Part shown: in pieces, positions 6,423 through 62,685 of the stretch
Layout of the letters: every line of letters starts with the position of its first letter
Numbering within the stretch: the first letter of the stretch is position 1
NCBI GenBank assembly: GCA_012862575.1
Contig: BLSF01000081.1
Span: forward strand, 62,001-126,000
Length of the DNA stretch: 64,000 bases
Direction: 5' to 3'
Origin: Parietichytrium sp. I65-24A
Taxonomy: Eukaryota > Sar > Bigyra > Thraustochytrida > Thraustochytriidae
The notes under the pieces: generated by a model
Database searches by the model: none
The model's input: only the letters and a program-made list of their open reading frames with translations
Told to the model about the DNA's origin: nothing
Made by a program: the position numbers and the translations under genes

Positions 6423-7412
6423 ATGTCCACTGCGAGCGGCATAGGATCGGCAGGCATTGCCACTGGCGTGGGGCAGTGGTATCAGCTCTATGACGAGGAG
6501 TCCGGGAGGTACTTTTTCTTCGACAAAGGCACGAAAACAACGTCATGGGGTTTGCCTCTGCGAGATTGTCTCCCCGAAAGCGAGCGGGTGCCTCATGGTC
6601 GCGGCGAATCGGACTGGATGGTGTGCATAGATCCTCAGAGCGGCAAGAAGTTCTTCCAGAGTGTCAAGATCAAGCGTGTGCAATGGACGCCGCCGATCAT
6701 GTTTCGACCGTATTTGATGAGAATCCCTTACTTTCAGCAGAAGCGCGTGTCCATGGTCGGCGCAGCGTCCATCGGAGGAGCATCCCGCCCCACGCTGGAG
6801 AGGCAGCCGTCGCTCACGTTCATTGTGTCCAAGATCGGAATCGAAGATGTTCTGGAGAATACGACTACTTGTGCAGCTTTTCACCGCTTTTTGGTGGCCA
6901 CCCACGCCGAGGAAAATTTACTCTTCTGGGGTGCGGCCGAGGTGTTCCGCGTCGGAGAGTGGAAAGGCATGAAGGTTATCGGCGAGGCCACGGAGGACAC
7001 CCAAAACGGCGACGACGAGGGGTCGGCCATGTTGCAGGCGCAAATGATGGAAACCCGCGCGAGCTATAGAATAGGGTTTGTTCCTGGCGTCAAAAGAATG
7101 TCAGTGGGGCGCGAGGCGCGAGTCATTTTTGACAAGTTCCTGCGCGTGGATGCTCCCATGGAGGTGTGCGTGGATAGGAGAGTCGCCGACGAGGTTCTGG
7201 ACGGCCTCACCTCCCGCAAAAAGCTGGAGGACCGGACCCTTTTTGTGCGAGCGCAGGAGAGCGTTCTGCGCGGCATGGAAGAGGACCTCTTGCCGCGTTT
7301 CTTGAAGGTGGCGCTTTCCGATGAAGACGAGACGGTGGGCTCCAAATCCAACTCTTTCTGCTCCGATGAGGTCGTGCGGACCGCATTGAAACGTCTTGCA
7401 GGTACGGCCTAG
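6423..7412 (+). CDS. RGS-domain protein with two WW-like repeats
   Basis: A 329-residue protein likely to speed GTP hydrolysis by G-alpha subunits. Residues about 138-296 form an RGS domain: the AAFHRFLVATHAEENLLFW helices carry the conserved E-N pair that contacts the G-alpha switch regions, and the domain closes with FVRAQESVLRGMEEDLLPRFL. Ahead of it are two WW-like repeats at about 19-45 (WYQLYDEESGRYFFF ... W) and 65-91 (WMVCIDPQSGKKFF ... W-TPP), each with two tryptophans and a central G-x-x-aromatic strand. The second repeat shares the pattern W, DPxSGKK, aromatic with the tail of the class C receptor at 58366-62685. About 35 residues (GDDEGSAML region) expand one RGS loop. The start is the ATG at 6423. 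The frame needs no introns. Confidence 0.88.
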   Translation: MSTASGIGSAGIATGVGQWYQLYDEESGRYFFFDKGTKTTSWGLPLRDCLPESERVPHGRGESDWMVCIDPQSGKKFFQSVKIKRVQWTPPIMFRPYLMRIPYFQQKRVSMVGAASIGGASRPTLERQPSLTFIVSKIGIEDVLENTTTCAAFHRFLVATHAEENLLFWGAAEVFRVGEWKGMKVIGEATEDTQNGDDEGSAMLQAQMMETRASYRIGFVPGVKRMSVGREARVIFDKFLRVDAPMEVCVDRRVADEVLDGLTSRKKLEDRTLFVRAQESVLRGMEEDLLPRFLKVALSDEDETVGSKSNSFCSDEVVRTALKRLAGTA

Positions 7413-51374: not shown

Positions 51375-52505
51375 TCACAGCATTCCAGTGCTAGCCAAGT
51401 TGGTCTTGAAGATGATGTGTTTGCACATGTTGAAGACTGTGCGAACGTTGTTGGTGTTTGTGGCCATGGTTTGAAAAGGATATATATCTGACGCCATAGA
51501 GTCCACGCTCTGCAAATCTTTTGTGGCTCTGAAGATGCTCACAAATTGATCTTGTACATAGTCGACTGCCTCATCATAATCCGCTCCCCCCTCGTACTCT
51601 GGGAAGCAGACTCTGAGATCGACACGCTTTATTTTCTCCTCGAAAAGATCCTTCTTGTTGAGGAAAAGAATAATGTTAGTCTCCTCAAAATAGGGGCAAG
51701 CAACGATGTCTTTGAATACCGCCATAGCGTCATGCATCCGGTTTATTGTGGAGTCTTCCAGCAGAAACTTGTCATACTCTGAGAGCGACACCAAAAACAT
51801 GATTGCGGTGACGTTGTCGAAATGGCTGATCCACTTTTTTCGCTCGTTCCTTTGGCCACCCACGTCCAGCATGCGGCACCTTATGTTGTCGAGGGTGAAC
51901 TCGATTTTTACGACTCCACTCGTTCGTGCTCTCGCTTGCAAAATGTCGTCCGTGGAAGGCATATATGCGTTGTCAATAATACGGTGAATATGACTCATGA
52001 AATATGTGATTGGAACCTCCAACATTGAGAGTTTGCCTTCGTACTGCATCACCAGCGCGATGGCCGGGTCTTCCCACACCTCTTTGCACAGCATCCCTAT
52101 CTGAACTGCGCTCCCTTCAAACTCCACTTCTTGCCAGATCGTCAGCGTTTTCGATTCTTTGAGCAGATCCACGATCTTTTGGACTCGGGGCTGAAGCGTA
52201 ATGGTCACCTCCTCGAGGTCGTTTACTCCTTGTGCAACCACAAGGATACCGCGCAAGATGTTGAGTGACACCACGTGCTTGTGCGAGTTTGCATCTCCGA
52301 GGCCCTGCTCCGTGTGTAAAAATTTGAACTGCTTCAAAATTGTGCTCTTTCCGCTGTTTCCTGTCCCGAGAAGAAGGATCTTGACGATGCTTCTCTCTTT
52401 CTCGAAGTCGGCTGCGATCTGTGCTTCCACGGCCTCATTTCTATTCTTTGCTGCTCGCTGGGGATTTGCCCCAGGAGGGTCAGCAGTTCCAGCGCAATTT
52501 CCCAT
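51375..52505 (-). CDS. heterotrimeric G-protein alpha subunit
   Basis: A 376-residue G-alpha from the ATG at 52505. MGNC at the N-terminus supports myristoylation of Gly2 and palmitoylation of Cys4. P-loop GTGNSGKST at 47-55; switch I Arg192 and Thr195 in ARARTSG; switch II DVGGQ 214-218 with the catalytic Gln; NKKD 283-286 for guanine recognition; TMATNT at 346-351 in place of TCATDT. The helical domain is of normal length. Two deviations are notable: Asn50 replaces the nearly invariant Glu of the P-loop (Glu43 in G-alpha-i1), which normally salt-bridges to the switch I Arg over the bound nucleotide, and the TCAT Cys and following Asp are changed. Catalytic Arg and Gln are kept. It should couple to a receptor such as the one at 58366. 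No introns. Confidence 0.93.
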   Translation of the reverse strand: MGNCAGTADPPGANPQRAAKNRNEAVEAQIAADFEKERSIVKILLLGTGNSGKSTILKQFKFLHTEQGLGDANSHKHVVSLNILRGILVVAQGVNDLEEVTITLQPRVQKIVDLLKESKTLTIWQEVEFEGSAVQIGMLCKEVWEDPAIALVMQYEGKLSMLEVPITYFMSHIHRIIDNAYMPSTDDILQARARTSGVVKIEFTLDNIRCRMLDVGGQRNERKKWISHFDNVTAIMFLVSLSEYDKFLLEDSTINRMHDAMAVFKDIVACPYFEETNIILFLNKKDLFEEKIKRVDLRVCFPEYEGGADYDEAVDYVQDQFVSIFRATKDLQSVDSMASDIYPFQTMATNTNNVRTVFNMCKHIIFKTNLASTGML

Positions 52506-53178
52506 GGCAATTGGGTTCAACTCTTTTGTGTTTCCTTCCTCTTGGTCTCCTGCCCTTGATGTTGGCGCACGCAAAATCGAATGAGACGGACTTGCGTGGC
52601 GCGCCGCAGGAATCGAATAGCCGCCGCCTTGAAGTTGCTGCGCCCCGAGAAGGCCGCTGCTCCACCTTTTGCAACCCTCTTCCTCCCTCTATCTCATCTA
52701 CGAAACCGCGTCGCTCTCGCCTCCTCTTTGTCGCCGCACGCCGCCAAATACAAGAAACGACGTCCGCAACCAACGAAAAACAAACCCAACCTACTTGCCG
52801 CCAGAGACAGGCACAGCCTCGGCCACAGCAGACAACCGCACGGCCCACGCACCCCTTCCTCGCAACCTTTCCCGGCAACGCGATGGACGCGATGGAAGTG
52901 ACAAATTGGGTGATAATAAACGCAACGGATCAAGGATGATGGACGATAGATGATGGATGATGGATGGGGTTATAGGTGGATAGCTGGGTGGGCGGATAGG
53001 TGATGGAAGGTTAGGCAGGCGATGGACGATAGATGATGGGCGACGGAGGCACCCGGAGCTGCAAGAGCAAGCCAAAACAGACCCTACTCCTCCGCTAGCA
53101 AGGCCGCGTTCGGCCGGACTTGTCAGTTCTGACTTTCAATTTGGTTCGTTTAATTGTGTGCTTTCTTCCTTCCTTCAC

Positions 53179-55573: not shown

Positions 55574-56998
55574 TTAGATAACGACTCCTCCACGAGCGCT
55601 TGGCCCTCTTGGTGTTGCATTCGTCACCCCAATCTGAACGTTTGGCTCCATTGGAGGAGGATCCTTATGACTCGGTCCGGAGCCATTTCCGAATCTTTCA
55701 ATGACGATGCGATAAAGATCTTCTTTGGACTCCCCAAAGTCCTCAATTCCCTTCGCTCCCAAGAACCTCTTCAATGCTTTATGGGATATGAAATCTGTCG
55801 CATTCTCAATCACACCTAACTTTTGCAATATCGGTCTCACTTTTCGACCAAGGCGATTCGCGGCCTTTTGTTTCACGGCAGCCTCTCTTTGTTTCTGAGC
55901 CTTCTTCTTCGCTTTGCGCTTGGCAAGTTTCAGAGCTCTTGACTCCTCATCGTCAATTGTGTATCCAGACATCAATGCAGCTTGGTCGAATAGCTTGTCT
56001 ATCAGGTGGTGGACTTCATCCGCACCATCATCGTCATCATCGTCATCGTCGTCATCTTCAGCAGTCGCTCGAGCGGTCTCGTTTTGTTGTTCGGCTTCAC
56101 CACTGATCCGGCGCCTTTTGCGACCACTTGAACTTGAAGATTGTGAGTGGAGAGCCGCTCTCACCTTCTCTGCGATGTTTGGGTCCATATTTCTCATAAT
56201 TCTTCGGACTTCAGGGTCCGCATTCTCGTATGCCTTAGGCTTGACACCCCGTTTCATGATCTGTTTGGCTGAAGGTAGCGCGGTCAAATCCTTGGGTTTC
56301 GGCCGTACGGAATTCTCTCGGCGTAATTCACGGTCTTCCTTGGCTAGTCGATGCATTGGGACCGGCTCGATAATACCAACAAGATCGTCTGCGCGAACCG
56401 AGCGGAGCTCGCGCAGAGTTCTCCTTGCCTCGGACTCGGGCGCACGCAGATAAGCTTGCTCGTAGTCAGTGGAGGTAATGAAGCCACCAACAGGGCGGTA
56501 ATCCTCTCTCGGAAACCCGTGCACCTCGTGCAAGGTAGCAATCTGCTCCAGCGCCGTCACAACATAAAGATGTACATCCTTGTAATTAATTTTCCCCAGC
56601 TGCTCCCCGAAAACCAGATTCAGGTGGCGTTTTAGATCGCCAAGTTTTGAAGTTGTGTCTTCCTTATTTCTCTCGAGACCCTTCCGGTGTGCGGCGACAA
56701 ACCTGAACACCTCGTTGTACAGTGCCTCTGGTGTCAGCACTTTCCAGCCCCTTTTCACCACGTCCCCCGCAAGTCGTTTCGACATTTCTAAAATCGTCCT
56801 CTCCGCAGCGTCTGCAACCATATCTCTCATCGTGTTCGAAAAGGTGTTCTTCAAAACGGTCCGAAGCCTCCGCGAGTGTCCCTGCAAACTACCCACGACA
56901 AATTGCTCCAACATATCATTGACTGCTTTCTTCGGGTTCTCCGCCTGTTCAACGGGCTTGCGGGATACATTTGGGTGCCTTCTAGATCTAAGATCCAT
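55574..56998 (-). CDS. hypothetical nuclear-type protein with acidic and Lys-rich blocks
   Basis: A 474-residue protein from the ATG at 56998 that I do not recognise. Residues about 20-190 are helical and look folded (LEQFVVGSLQGHSRRLRTVL, YNEVFRFVAAHRKGLERNKE, YVVTALEQIATLHEVHGFPR). A basic part with SSSSSGRKRRR precedes a pure Asp run of ten residues near 315, then a Lys/Ala helix (LKLAKRKAKKKAQKQREAAV). The last 100 residues carry a small conserved-looking helix-turn-helix (SHKALKRFLGAKGIEDFGES) that could be a SAP- or LEM-like motif. Charge blocks and NLS-like runs suggest a nuclear or nucleolar protein. No introns. Confidence 0.68.
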   Translation of the reverse strand: MDLRSRRHPNVSRKPVEQAENPKKAVNDMLEQFVVGSLQGHSRRLRTVLKNTFSNTMRDMVADAAERTILEMSKRLAGDVVKRGWKVLTPEALYNEVFRFVAAHRKGLERNKEDTTSKLGDLKRHLNLVFGEQLGKINYKDVHLYVVTALEQIATLHEVHGFPREDYRPVGGFITSTDYEQAYLRAPESEARRTLRELRSVRADDLVGIIEPVPMHRLAKEDRELRRENSVRPKPKDLTALPSAKQIMKRGVKPKAYENADPEVRRIMRNMDPNIAEKVRAALHSQSSSSSGRKRRRISGEAEQQNETARATAEDDDDDDDDDDGADEVHHLIDKLFDQAALMSGYTIDDEESRALKLAKRKAKKKAQKQREAAVKQKAANRLGRKVRPILQKLGVIENATDFISHKALKRFLGAKGIEDFGESKEDLYRIVIERFGNGSGPSHKDPPPMEPNVQIGVTNATPRGPSARGGVVI

Positions 56999-58365: not shown

Positions 58366-61300
58366 ATGTCACAGAGACGCAGGAGTCGCGCGCGGGCGCT
58401 CGCAGCATGGATCGGCTTGGTCGGAGTGGCCCTTTTTGCACAGGTTGCAGAGGCAAAGACGGTGAACAGACTATCGTGCACGGGCAAACTGAGGGTTTGC
58501 CAAAGTGGAGAGGACCCGTATCACGATGATGAAGAAGCTGGAGTGCAATACTGCACCGAGAATAAGCTTGATCGGCCGGCTGTGATACTAACCGGCGGAG
58601 GGTGGTGGACGTCGGTGTACAACATGTGGATCGCGCAGATCATCATGGAGGAACAGATGCAGGTTCCTGTGCAGATTGAGCAAGTCAATGGCGGGTCATT
58701 TCAGTATTGGACCTTCAACAACGAGGCTTATGATGTGCTTGACGGGAGGATGTATTCGTGGGACGCACTTCATCTCGCTGCGAATGGATCTATGGACTGC
58801 TCCACCGGCTTTAAAAATGTATATGGTAGTGTACCCGAAGACCTGACGGCAGCTGGGTGTACAACCAACTGCATGCCATGTGCGCATGCCATGCTAGAGG
58901 TGTGGCCGCACGGGCAAACTGACAATTATGATTTGTATGTGGAGGAGAGGAAGACACTGGAAGATGGGGGTTCGCTAGGCACGATCGGGGAACATGGGTG
59001 GTGGGCCAGCAAGGCGACATTGACCGAATTACCTTTGCTTTCCTCTTTCCGCGGGATGTCCAAGAGCAATAATTCAACGGAGGCGAACCCGACGAGGATT
59101 TTTCGAAAGGCTCTGACTTTGGGTCAATATTGCAACTATACCTACTGGGAGTGGGAATACATTGCCAGCTCGTTCGGAGGGCCGTCTCAAAACCTGAAAG
59201 CAGCTAACATGTCACATTTTTGCCACCATTTCTTTGAGTCGTCAATGGGAGCAGAATATCCCGACCTCCCCTGGAGCGAGCAATACGATACGGAATATCA
59301 GGCGCTGCGATGGGATCAGCTGCAGCGGTGCGCGTCGAACGAGAATGTCACGGTAGGGCTTTTATTCTATGAGCTTTGTGTTCAGTTCTGGATCACTCCT
59401 ACAGACCTTGACGAGAAGCTACCTGGAGCAGCAACTGGGCTCAATAGAGCTGGCTATGCCCCTGACATCAAGTTCTTATACCGGGGCTTCTTCATGCCGT
59501 TCGAGGATGGCGACATTGGGTTTCTGCAGACAACAACGTGTCCTCTCAATACCTGGATGGACTCTTCCCCAGGAGCTGAAGATTGGACGGTTTGGGACAA
59601 ATCAGGCTATGGAGTGGACGGGTACACTAGATTTGAAAATTATGACCCTGACATTATTGAAAGTTTGCAATTGAACCTGAAGCCTATCTCGATGAGATCT
59701 GATGTGCGAAGTGTCCTAGAAGTGTCTGCTCGACTAAGCGAGGAAAATCCGGACGAATTTTCTCCAGTCCTTCTATCCTGGTTCAAACCAAGCAGCATCT
59801 TCCACCGGAAAGACTACAATATGAGCAACGAACCTTGGGGAGGTTACTCTGGAGCAAATTTTGAGCTCGCCAGGGTACAGCTCCCAGAATATGCGTCTTC
59901 TTGTGAAACCTCTCGCAGGAATTACAGCGAAGCTTGCAAAGCAGGCGAATATGCTTCGACTGATGACACAGAGCAATGTGGCTATGGGCAGCAGGTCCTC
60001 TACAAGGTATTTGCGTCCAAGCTCAAGGACTACTCTCCTGAAGGATACAGATTTTTGAGACGGATGAAAATCACCACCGAAGACCAAGAGTGGATTTTAT
60101 CGGAGATTGACTATAGCCAGAACGCTGCGTACTCTACAAACCACCCCACTAGAATACGAGACGTGGTGTGCGAATGGGTAAAGAACAACGAAAATGTCTG
60201 GAAGAATTGGCTCCCAATAACTTCCGATCAAGTGCGATGCTTAGGGGAGCTTGGGGATCCTTTTGCGGTCGAGGATCCGAATTATTCGGAAGCGACGGAC
60301 AGCGTCAAGGAGTGCTCCAATCACGGGTATTGCAACTACACAGATGAGTCGCTGAAACTTCACCCAAATGCTGGCGATTGTGTATGTGATCTCGGGTACC
60401 AAGGCGACGATTGCTCCGGTCTAATTGAGCCTGCTTCACTGAATGTGACATACACCAGTGCGGTATTTGTGCTCATAACCCTGTTGAATCTGGGAACCTG
60501 TGCAGTGGCGTCCCGGCTTTTAAAACGCCTGGAAAAGTTCGAAAAGGTGTCGATCGTGTTTCGAGTCTCCCACCCGAGCTTTGTGCGCCTGAATCTGATT
60601 GCTATTATAGCTGCCTGCGTGGGGTCTTTTTTCTGGGCTGGCACGGCCACCATCATCCACTGCTTGGCACGGCCGATATTTACAACAGTACCACTTAATG
60701 TGGTGAACTGTCTCATGTACGTGAAGTTGATGCGCAAGAAAATGCGATTTGCCATGAATCTAGAAGATATCCACGGCCATCTCTATCCTCTCCTTGGTTT
60801 TTTCGCAGGACTTTTTGCTGTCTGGTTCTTCTTGTTTTCGCCGTATGCCGAGGACGTCAGGTTGGAAGATCGAGTGTGGGAAAAGTACTCTTCGTGCAAT
60901 TTTGGCTCCAATCAAGCCGCCTTTGAAGCGCTCATCTTGGTCACGTCTTCTTTTCTTGGAGTGTCAAATTGTATGCTAAGCTTTGAGCTCCGGAAGAAGC
61001 CAACTTATTTTGACGAAGGTGGCGACCTTTTGAAAACCTCGTGGGCACTGAATGGTCTGATGGCGATTCTCTATGTCAGCGCACAATTTGTGGTGTCCCC
61101 AAACGAGCAGGGAAAGTATATCCTGAATACCCTTGTCCCGCTCTTGTGTTGCTGGTCTGTTTTGTATCTTCTGATATGGCCGAAATTTCGCGTTCACTAC
61201 TATTTTCCGGAGAAGAACAATTTGAAAGACGGGCTCTATCACCCAACTGGGGATCCGGCGCTGGCAGTGGGCGACCCAGTCGCGAATGTGCCCAAAATTC

Positions 61301-62685
61301 TTGCGGAGGAGGAAGCCGAAGATGCGCGTTTGAGCAAACTCAGAGAACACGCGGCCCCAATGGCGAAATCATCGAGCAGGCCCATGCCTGCTGGGCGCCC
61401 AAGGCGACTGACGATGGGTGTCTCTCTGCGACGCAAGGTATCCGTAGCCTTTCAGAGCGGGTCCAACATGATTGGAGCATTTTTACAGAAGCGCCAAAGC
61501 ATAGCTCCAATGACCAGGCACCAAAAGGTGCACATTGAAAACCTTGAGAGTCTCGATCGTCTAGATGAGTTTCCGCCACCGGAGGAGGAGGTTTTAAAAG
61601 ACCCTCACAAGATGCACGATGAGACCAAAAGAGCGATCGCCTACAGGAGTCCAGAGATGTACTTTCTTTTGGAGAAGCGGCTTAAGATCATCGAGCGAGA
61701 GAATGCCGAGCTGACTAGAATTCTGCAGGAGCACCGCATTGACCCGGTAACTGGAGAAATAGACGAGGACTATCTTGCAGCCCTTCACCGCGTCGAAACA
61801 GAGTACAAAGAAAAAATGCACCTCTTGGAAACCGATCACAGTCAGGAGGTTCGCGAATTGCGACAAGAGAATGAAGACCAGCGAAGGCTGTACGAGAGAG
61901 ATAAAATCGATGCTGTGGCAAGACTCACAAAGGAAAAGATGGACGCAATCGCCGATCTCAAGGCAGAGACATTCCACCAGGTTCATCAGCTCTCACGATT
62001 GGAACAGGACAATATTCGTCTTGCCAATACTTTGCGCGGGACCTTGCCGGAGCTTTCGAAATTCCTTGCTGCATTTGGATTCGATGAACACGAGCAAAAT
62101 CTCTTGCAAGAGGGAATCGATTCAACGGAAAAGCTCATATTGGCCTCAAAAGAAGATCTTCAAGCCGCGGGAATGCGCCTCGGTCACGTTCGCAAATTGG
62201 GGTCAATATTACAATCTATGGAGGTCGCAACTCCATTCGTTGTCATGCCCGAGGCAGCAGAACCCAGACCTCAATTTTCCAAGGCAGAGCCTGCTGAGGC
62301 TGACGAGACATTCGACAACAACCGCTCAGATGGCCATGGGCAGCGAGAGGAACGAGCAGGCACTACGTCCAAATCAAAGAAACCGAAGCAAAAGAAGAGG
62401 AAGAAGGATCAACAACGTGATCCAGGTTGGCTTATTAACCGTGATCCGAGCAGTGGCAAGAAGTACATGATCCACCCTCAAACTGGCGAAACAAAGTGGT
62501 ACGAGGGGGAGGCAGACCCAAATCCGACATTGCAAAGGCTTGGCGAGAGGCAAGACGTGGAGGCCGTATTCTCCGATGACAGTGACGTGGAGGAAACAGT
62601 TTTGGCCGACGAAAAGGATGGAAGCGAGGCGAAGCAGGACAAAAAGTCTAAGAAGCTCAAGAAAAAACCCAATCAGCACGAGTGA
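58366..62685 (+). CDS. class C GPCR with betaine-binding-type ectodomain, EGF, coiled coil, SAM and WW-like modules
   Basis: A 1439-residue receptor. Signal peptide 1-30. From about 70 onward the ectodomain resembles the OpuAC/ProX substrate-binding fold (ILTGGGWWTSVYNMWIAQII, W-aromatic cluster, LEVWPHGQTDNYD), with many Cys and N-glycosylation sites. An EGF-like module is at about 649-684 (CSNHGYC ... CVCDLGYQGDDC). Seven helices span about 694-941 with class C hallmarks: FRVSHPSFVRLNLI before helix 2, TTVPLNVVNCLMYVKLMRK in helix 3, and WPKFRVHYYFPEKN after helix 7. The cytosolic tail has a basic linker, a coiled coil (about 1098-1225), a SAM domain (about 1226-1285, LLQEGIDSTEKLILASKEDL) and a WW-like module (about 1352-1382, GWLINRDPSSGKKYM). 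It probably senses a small solute and signals through G-alpha. Start is the ATG at 58366. No introns. Confidence 0.9.
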   Translation: MSQRRRSRARALAAWIGLVGVALFAQVAEAKTVNRLSCTGKLRVCQSGEDPYHDDEEAGVQYCTENKLDRPAVILTGGGWWTSVYNMWIAQIIMEEQMQVPVQIEQVNGGSFQYWTFNNEAYDVLDGRMYSWDALHLAANGSMDCSTGFKNVYGSVPEDLTAAGCTTNCMPCAHAMLEVWPHGQTDNYDLYVEERKTLEDGGSLGTIGEHGWWASKATLTELPLLSSFRGMSKSNNSTEANPTRIFRKALTLGQYCNYTYWEWEYIASSFGGPSQNLKAANMSHFCHHFFESSMGAEYPDLPWSEQYDTEYQALRWDQLQRCASNENVTVGLLFYELCVQFWITPTDLDEKLPGAATGLNRAGYAPDIKFLYRGFFMPFEDGDIGFLQTTTCPLNTWMDSSPGAEDWTVWDKSGYGVDGYTRFENYDPDIIESLQLNLKPISMRSDVRSVLEVSARLSEENPDEFSPVLLSWFKPSSIFHRKDYNMSNEPWGGYSGANFELARVQLPEYASSCETSRRNYSEACKAGEYASTDDTEQCGYGQQVLYKVFASKLKDYSPEGYRFLRRMKITTEDQEWILSEIDYSQNAAYSTNHPTRIRDVVCEWVKNNENVWKNWLPITSDQVRCLGELGDPFAVEDPNYSEATDSVKECSNHGYCNYTDESLKLHPNAGDCVCDLGYQGDDCSGLIEPASLNVTYTSAVFVLITLLNLGTCAVASRLLKRLEKFEKVSIVFRVSHPSFVRLNLIAIIAACVGSFFWAGTATIIHCLARPIFTTVPLNVVNCLMYVKLMRKKMRFAMNLEDIHGHLYPLLGFFAGLFAVWFFLFSPYAEDVRLEDRVWEKYSSCNFGSNQAAFEALILVTSSFLGVSNCMLSFELRKKPTYFDEGGDLLKTSWALNGLMAILYVSAQFVVSPNEQGKYILNTLVPLLCCWSVLYLLIWPKFRVHYYFPEKNNLKDGLYHPTGDPALAVGDPVANVPKILAEEEAEDARLSKLREHAAPMAKSSSRPMPAGRPRRLTMGVSLRRKVSVAFQSGSNMIGAFLQKRQSIAPMTRHQKVHIENLESLDRLDEFPPPEEEVLKDPHKMHDETKRAIAYRSPEMYFLLEKRLKIIERENAELTRILQEHRIDPVTGEIDEDYLAALHRVETEYKEKMHLLETDHSQEVRELRQENEDQRRLYERDKIDAVARLTKEKMDAIADLKAETFHQVHQLSRLEQDNIRLANTLRGTLPELSKFLAAFGFDEHEQNLLQEGIDSTEKLILASKEDLQAAGMRLGHVRKLGSILQSMEVATPFVVMPEAAEPRPQFSKAEPAEADETFDNNRSDGHGQREERAGTTSKSKKPKQKKRKKDQQRDPGWLINRDPSSGKKYMIHPQTGETKWYEGEADPNPTLQRLGERQDVEAVFSDDSDVEETVLADEKDGSEAKQDKKSKKLKKKPNQHE

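Follow-up and report, generated by a model that had tools for sequence, protein, structure and literature searches.

Animal class C G-protein-coupled receptors (GPCRs) sense glutamate, γ-aminobutyric acid (GABA), calcium or sugars, mostly through an extracellular module of the ANF type. Here we describe a gene of the thraustochytrid Parietichytrium sp. I65-24A for a receptor of this class with an OpuAC/ProX-type ectodomain. The gene lies on the plus strand at 58366-62685 of the window, by which we mean the whole stretch of 64,000 nucleotides that was analysed (positions 62,001 to 126,000 of contig BLSF01000081.1, C81 here); the genome searches covered 42.5 Mb in 172 contigs. From its N-terminus the predicted protein consists of a signal peptide, the ectodomain, an EGF-like module, seven helices, a helical tail, a SAM domain and a WW-like module (Table 1). 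What is established in the explanation developed below is that one frame encodes these modules in this order and that the ectodomain is homologous to bacterial binding proteins of the betaine class.

Locus and reading frame

The frame runs uninterrupted from the ATG at 58366 to the stop codon at 62683-62685 and encodes 1439 aa. Although the same frame opens upstream at a GTG (58177), the start chosen is the ATG ahead of the signal peptide-like stretch, where inspection reveals a basic n-region, a hydrophobic core and small residues ahead of K31, and where the hydropathy profile displays a lone signal-like segment at residues 7-33. The gene is described here from genomic DNA, which leaves some room for an annotation-type artefact, namely two adjacent genes misread as one frame. 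Such an artefact is nevertheless extremely improbable, because 1439 codons without a stop follow a signal-like start and because the join of an OpuAC-type ectodomain to a seven-helix core in one frame recurs in three paralogues, albeit none of them shares the join to the SAM/WW tail. We therefore regard the locus as a single gene, as the first-pass annotation of the sequence had done, and not as a fusion.

Table 1. Window coordinates of the receptor gene and its parts (HMM, hidden Markov model)
Feature	Position	Strand	Basis
Whole receptor gene	58366..62685	+	single open frame, 1439 aa + stop
Signal peptide-like segment, residues 1-30	58366..58455	+	hydropathy and inspection
OpuAC/ProX-type ectodomain, residues 31-630, with insertions relative to bacterial proteins	58456..60255	+	bacterial-only HMM; hhalign to paralogues
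Trp80, likely counterpart of TmoX Trp55 / DmpX Trp35	58603..58605	+	alignment with the paralogues' Trp
First homologous stretch, residues 174-234, with Trp180 (LEVW) and GWW	58885..59067	+	HMM domain 1
Trp180, counterpart of TmoX Trp102 / DmpX Trp84	58903..58905	+	alignments, HMM
Trp407, candidate counterpart of TmoX Trp177 / DmpX Trp152	59584..59586	+	MAFFT with paralogues
Second homologous stretch, residues 417-616, with Phe423 and Phe473	59614..60213	+	HMM domain 2
Phe423, alternative to Trp407 for TmoX Trp177 / DmpX Trp152	59632-59634	+	ungapped HMM alignment
Phe473, counterpart of TmoX Trp222 / DmpX Trp202	59782..59784	+	alignments, HMM
EGF-like module, residues 649-684	60310..60417	+	EGF_2, below curated cut-off
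Seven-helix class C core, residues ~694-941	60445..61188	+	7tm_3, hydropathy, own-genome class C HMM
Long charged helical stretch whose second half resembles a coiled coil, residues 1133-1225	61762..62040	+	heptad moment versus shuffles
SAM domain, residues 1226-1285	62041..62220	+	PF07647 above cut-off
WW-like module, residues 1353-1378	62422..62499	+	PF00397 below cut-off

The ectodomain and its aromatic cage

The first-pass annotation had assigned the outer part of the receptor to the OpuAC/ProX type rather than to ANF and had proposed a search with the Pfam OpuAC model PF04069 as a check. That model did not report the window protein in either the protein scan or the genome search. At E 1 its six matches in the genome fell into three frames (L033, L034 and L035), all three of which also carry 7tm_3; in these paralogues OpuAC is above the Pfam cut-off (E 1.2e-17 to 1.2e-22) and is joined in-frame to the class C core. 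The assignment itself was borne out by an HMM trained on 46 OpuAC-type proteins of bacteria (41 from genome contigs and 5 from plasmid records), on which the window ectodomain scored 65.2 bits, against 10.6 for the best of 2000 block shuffles, and the three paralogues 134 to 139 bits. Neither the Pfam scan nor the genome search returned an ANF match in the window protein.

The match to the bacterial HMM was split into two correctly ordered stretches, of 11.4 and 46.8 bits, and left ~60 N-terminal profile positions uncovered. The first stretch, weak when taken alone, reached 18.4 bits on a profile of bacteria plus paralogues and was placed identically in an alignment of 12 bacterial rows without the paralogues. 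When compared with the three paralogues by hhalign, the window ectodomain aligned over 347 columns (probability 98.6, E 9e-16). When the PDB was searched with profiles (E 1), betaine-class chains made up all five rows for the paralogue ectodomains and seven of eight rows for the window protein plus paralogues, the eighth being a MECOM chain at E 0.33; the score of TmoX rose from 39 to 52.6 bits once the window protein had joined the paralogue profile. A tblastn search seeded with a paralogue ectodomain (E 1) matched 103 plasmid records, the lowest E among the matches listed being 4e-20. Five plasmid regions were taken, two of which are without annotation at that place; in the other three the binding protein adjoins choline dehydrogenase or parts of betaine/choline ATP-binding cassette (ABC) systems. 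By profile comparison, the ectodomain is homologous to bacterial betaine-class binding proteins in both halves. It probably forms a large bilobed extracellular ligand module, its two lobes being predicted from homology, in which the OpuAC type replaces ANF. Bacterial binding proteins of this class work with a partner ABC permease and ATPase. Judging from the sequence, and without a search aimed at a partner importer, the window protein is homologous to such transport binding proteins but is itself no transport protein, being fused to a seven-helix core.

In sequence family and in its aromatic cage the ectodomain resembles TmoX (4XZ6) and DmpX (7YLE). TmoX binds trimethylamine N-oxide (TMAO) via W55, W102, F106, E131, W177, F220 and W222, and DmpX binds dimethylsulfoniopropionate (DMSP) via W35, T64, W84, E113, W152, A153, Y200 and W202 (PMC8918994, PMC10030565). 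Unlike the window protein, both are free periplasmic proteins of marine bacterial ABC importers, without a membrane core, and both have a glutamate (Glu131 and Glu113, respectively) where the window protein has His210; Gln184 occupies the place of TmoX F106. All four Trp positions of the cage are aromatic in the window protein (two Trp, one Trp or Phe, and one Phe), and the three paralogues possess Trp at all four. Trp80 aligns with the paralogues' Trp, which is itself aligned with a Trp that five bacterial proteins all share; we infer the last link, to TmoX Trp55 and DmpX Trp35, because these two proteins are unaligned at that place. At the fourth position, 44 bacterial proteins collected by motif search contain W (22), Y (20) or F (2). 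Since the four Trp positions correspond to W80, W180, W407 (or F423) and F473, the alignments suggest that the cation-binding cage is kept in outline. With such a cage, a ligand of the quaternary-ammonium or sulfonium type is plausible; that the receptor binds a betaine, choline, a sulfonium compound or an amine oxide would be a fair hypothesis, and one that is directly testable because the cage residues are known.

It is also conceivable that the same architecture has lost its betaine site and that the ectodomain binds another solute, a piece of cell wall or a partner protein, or is a spacer for contact sensing. Such a loss would fit the exchange of the hydrogen-bonding Glu for His and of Phe106 for Gln, the presence of Phe instead of Trp at one or two cage positions, the long insertions, the ten N-glycosylation motifs in the outer part of the receptor and the position of the window row on the longest branch (4.04) in a tree of ectodomain pieces. 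However, aromatic residues are retained at all four cage positions, as are the EVW and GWW motifs, and W, Y or F vary at the fourth position among bacteria too, so that we consider the loss of the site doubtful.

The seven-helix core and the class C family of the genome

The class C nature of the core was upheld by several lines of evidence. Pfam 7tm_3 (PF00003) matched residues 730-940 with 30.6 bits (E 3.4e-7), just below the cut-off of 33.5, and in the genome search the window gene reached 35.5 bits, above the cut-off. Seven hydrophobic segments are located between residues 694 and 941; 'PSFVRLN' sits at the start of helix 2, and helix 7 ends in WPK, the PK being part of 'WPKFRV' after helix 7. 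When the window core was aligned with 23 others of class C from this genome (24 rows), it kept all four invariant columns, among them those of a Cys pair (Cys766 ahead of helix 3 and Cys844 in the second outer loop) that is present in 24/24 rows. An HMM of 20 class C cores from this genome, constructed without the three paralogues, gave the window core 17.7 bits as compared to 10.7 for the best of 2000 segment-preserving shuffles; the core is therefore of class C but divergent. Between ectodomain and core, EGF_2 matched residues 649-683 with 17.5 bits (E 0.0055), so that the match for the EGF-like module proposed earlier lies at the expected place but below the Pfam cut-off (22.1 bits). The nine-cysteine domain NCD3G, which some class C subfamilies carry at this place, had no match up to E 10 in the window protein, the EGF-like match standing in its place; according to the accessible parts of two earlier studies, NCD3G is absent also from GABA-B and non-animal receptors (PMC3251606, PMC12716839).

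The three paralogues share with the window gene the ectodomain family, the cage Trp positions and the single-frame join to a 7tm_3 core, but they are ~790 aa long, with a short tail and no EGF, SAM or WW match at E 1. While the ectodomains are clearly alike, the cores are not: hhalign assigned the window core and the paralogue cores a probability of 0.1%, and in the alignment of class C cores their identity is 13%. Two histories could lie behind this, very rapid drift of the core or the joining of the binding module to two cores. In the second case the OpuAC module would have been grafted twice onto separate class C cores by domain shuffling, which is compatible with either view of the ligand. 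Two graftings would account for plainly homologous ectodomains on cores without detectable similarity, for the scores of 50 to 54 bits that the paralogue cores reach on the class C profile of the genome, against the 17.7 bits of the window core, and for the differing linkers, the EGF-like match being confined to the window gene among these. We nonetheless hold them to be possible but somewhat unlikely, given the low power of single-sequence comparison for divergent seven-helix cores and an ectodomain tree that does not decide between one and two origins; moreover, the whole window gene may simply evolve fast, since its ectodomain is itself on a long branch. The mismatch between ectodomains and cores bears on how freely class C receptors have swapped binding modules in the course of their evolution.

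In the genome as a whole, PF00003 gave 82 matches, or ~79 loci once three pairs of adjoining pieces are merged. The 24 ANF matches include at least 15 frames that also contain 7tm_3 (matched by contig, place and frame length). Six matches to PBP_like_2 (PF12849) are distributed over four 7tm_3 frames, one of them with two matches, and one frame without a 7tm_3 match; one of the four matches 7tm_3 over part of the model and below cut-off. One locus (L042, G000:C10:294500-298500), as well as frames on contigs C38 and C10, appear to encode class C receptors with PstS-like phosphate-binding ectodomains, which in L042, whose frame contains X, was judged by eye. The class C expansion is large, with clusters on contigs C71, C19, C85, C10 and C13, and its binding ectodomains are of three kinds or more.

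The cytosolic tail, known receptors and a proposed mechanism

SAM_2 (PF07647) matched residues 1226-1285 of the tail with 24.5 bits (E 3.1e-5; cut-off 20.5), confirming the predicted SAM domain, and the region displayed weak matches to the SAM chains of SHIP2, Eph and Caskin in the PDB (best E 0.0058). For the coiled coil proposed earlier, the heptad signal is clear only at ~1182-1244 (z up to 3.9) and not over the rest of the charged stretch, which is free of Pro and Gly from ~1133. WW (PF00397) matched residues 1353-1378 near the tail end at E 0.0013, but its 19.2 bits are below the cut-off of 26.9, and the module was absent from the genome matches to WW, for which 150 of 230 candidates were scored. 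The WW-like and EGF-like modules are the weakest-supported parts of the receptor.

Among 41 SAM_2 matches in the genome at E 0.01, that of the window gene is the only one within a class C frame, and a comparison of places found none of the others within 15 kb of such a frame. WW domains, with at least 150 matches, are very common; WW-like C-terminal ends were recognized by eye in three of eight other receptor regions (L036, L038 and L043); for one of the eight, L039, the listed frame was not that of the receptor. Consequently, the SAM tail is distinctive, occurring in 1 of ~79 class C loci, and the WW end is not. The same three regions, L036, L038 and L043, also have low-complexity outer parts rich in Pro, Thr and Ser, again by eye. 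In GABA-B subunits a C-terminal coiled coil serves pairing, and these subunits are not known to carry a SAM domain.

OpuAC ectodomains on class C cores were already described in 2012, in six proteins of Allomyces macrogynus (AMAG_01750, 04252, 14324, 14326, 15836 and 17562), in a paper that also lists PBP_like_2, LysR_substrate and SBP_bac_1 (PMC3251606). Compared by description only, these proteins resemble the window receptor in having a PF04069 outer module on a class C seven-helix core; they differ in being fungal, and the accessible part of the report mentions no EGF module, coiled coil, SAM domain or WW tail. About half of the class C receptors of gut fungi likewise possess a type II binding fold, and some have EGF modules before the class C core, but the binding domains there resemble sugar-binding proteins, and OpuAC is not named in the accessible text (PMC5168858). 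Varied outer domains are also on record for class C receptors of diatoms, amoebae and choanoflagellates (PMC3727952, PMC10445921, PMC12716839). Dictyostelium Grl (BMP; PMC10445921) and animal mGlyR/GPR179 (Cache and EGF; PMC12716839) carry, as here, a non-ANF ligand module on a class C core, albeit of another fold, whereas GABA-B subunits share the class C core but have an ANF ectodomain (PMC12716839). A literature search that left out bioRxiv and most subscription journals found neither the full order with the SAM and WW tail nor any paper on a class C receptor combining SAM with an OpuAC or other binding-protein ectodomain. The statement of the first-pass annotation that no receptor of this order had been described thus holds, within that search, only for the complete SAM/WW arrangement; because OpuAC on a class C core had already been reported in Allomyces, the novelty is smaller than first claimed. 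What appears to be new here is a SAM/WW-tailed form of an already described kind of OpuAC-class C receptor.

Taking the sequence evidence together, it is fairly probable that the gene encodes a protist class C GPCR whose outer part, a type II solute-binding module like those of OpuAC, TmoX and DmpX, fills the role that ANF has in animals, with a ligand in the cage, an EGF-like linker, coupling to G proteins and assembly through SAM. The aromatic cage between the two lobes would hold a small solute such as glycine betaine, choline, DMSP or TMAO, or another quaternary-ammonium, sulfonium or amine-oxide compound of this sort, and closure of the lobes would be relayed to the seven-helix core via the EGF-like linker, which would replace the cysteine-rich domain of animal receptors. 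The core would then signal to heterotrimeric G proteins, whose alpha subunits are encoded in this genome (matches above cut-off at ~13 loci). Dimers or larger arrays of receptors may be held together by the helical stretch and the SAM domain, while a proline-rich partner may bind to the WW-like module. A more specific proposal seems to us unlikely, namely that the GPCR is a direct sensor of betaine-class osmolytes (glycine betaine, choline, DMSP or TMAO) by means of a cage captured from the bacterial type, that it clusters by coiled coil plus SAM, and that in this genome the same binding module was grafted onto two separate class C cores. A protist receptor with a TMAO/DMSP/betaine cage would be a defined candidate for the sensing of common algal and bacterial osmolytes by eukaryotic microbes.

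The genes neighbouring the receptor, among them those for kinesin, PIG-U and a G-protein alpha subunit, are eukaryotic in character. The alpha subunit gene (51378-52574, minus strand; PF00503, E 5.8e-98) is located ~5.8 kb upstream of the receptor, and a 474-aa frame at 55574-56998 on the minus strand had no Pfam match at E 0.001. Farther upstream, the window (6423-7409, plus strand) encodes a protein in which an RGS domain follows a WW domain, which, together with the WW-like module in the receptor tail, hints at a shared scaffold.

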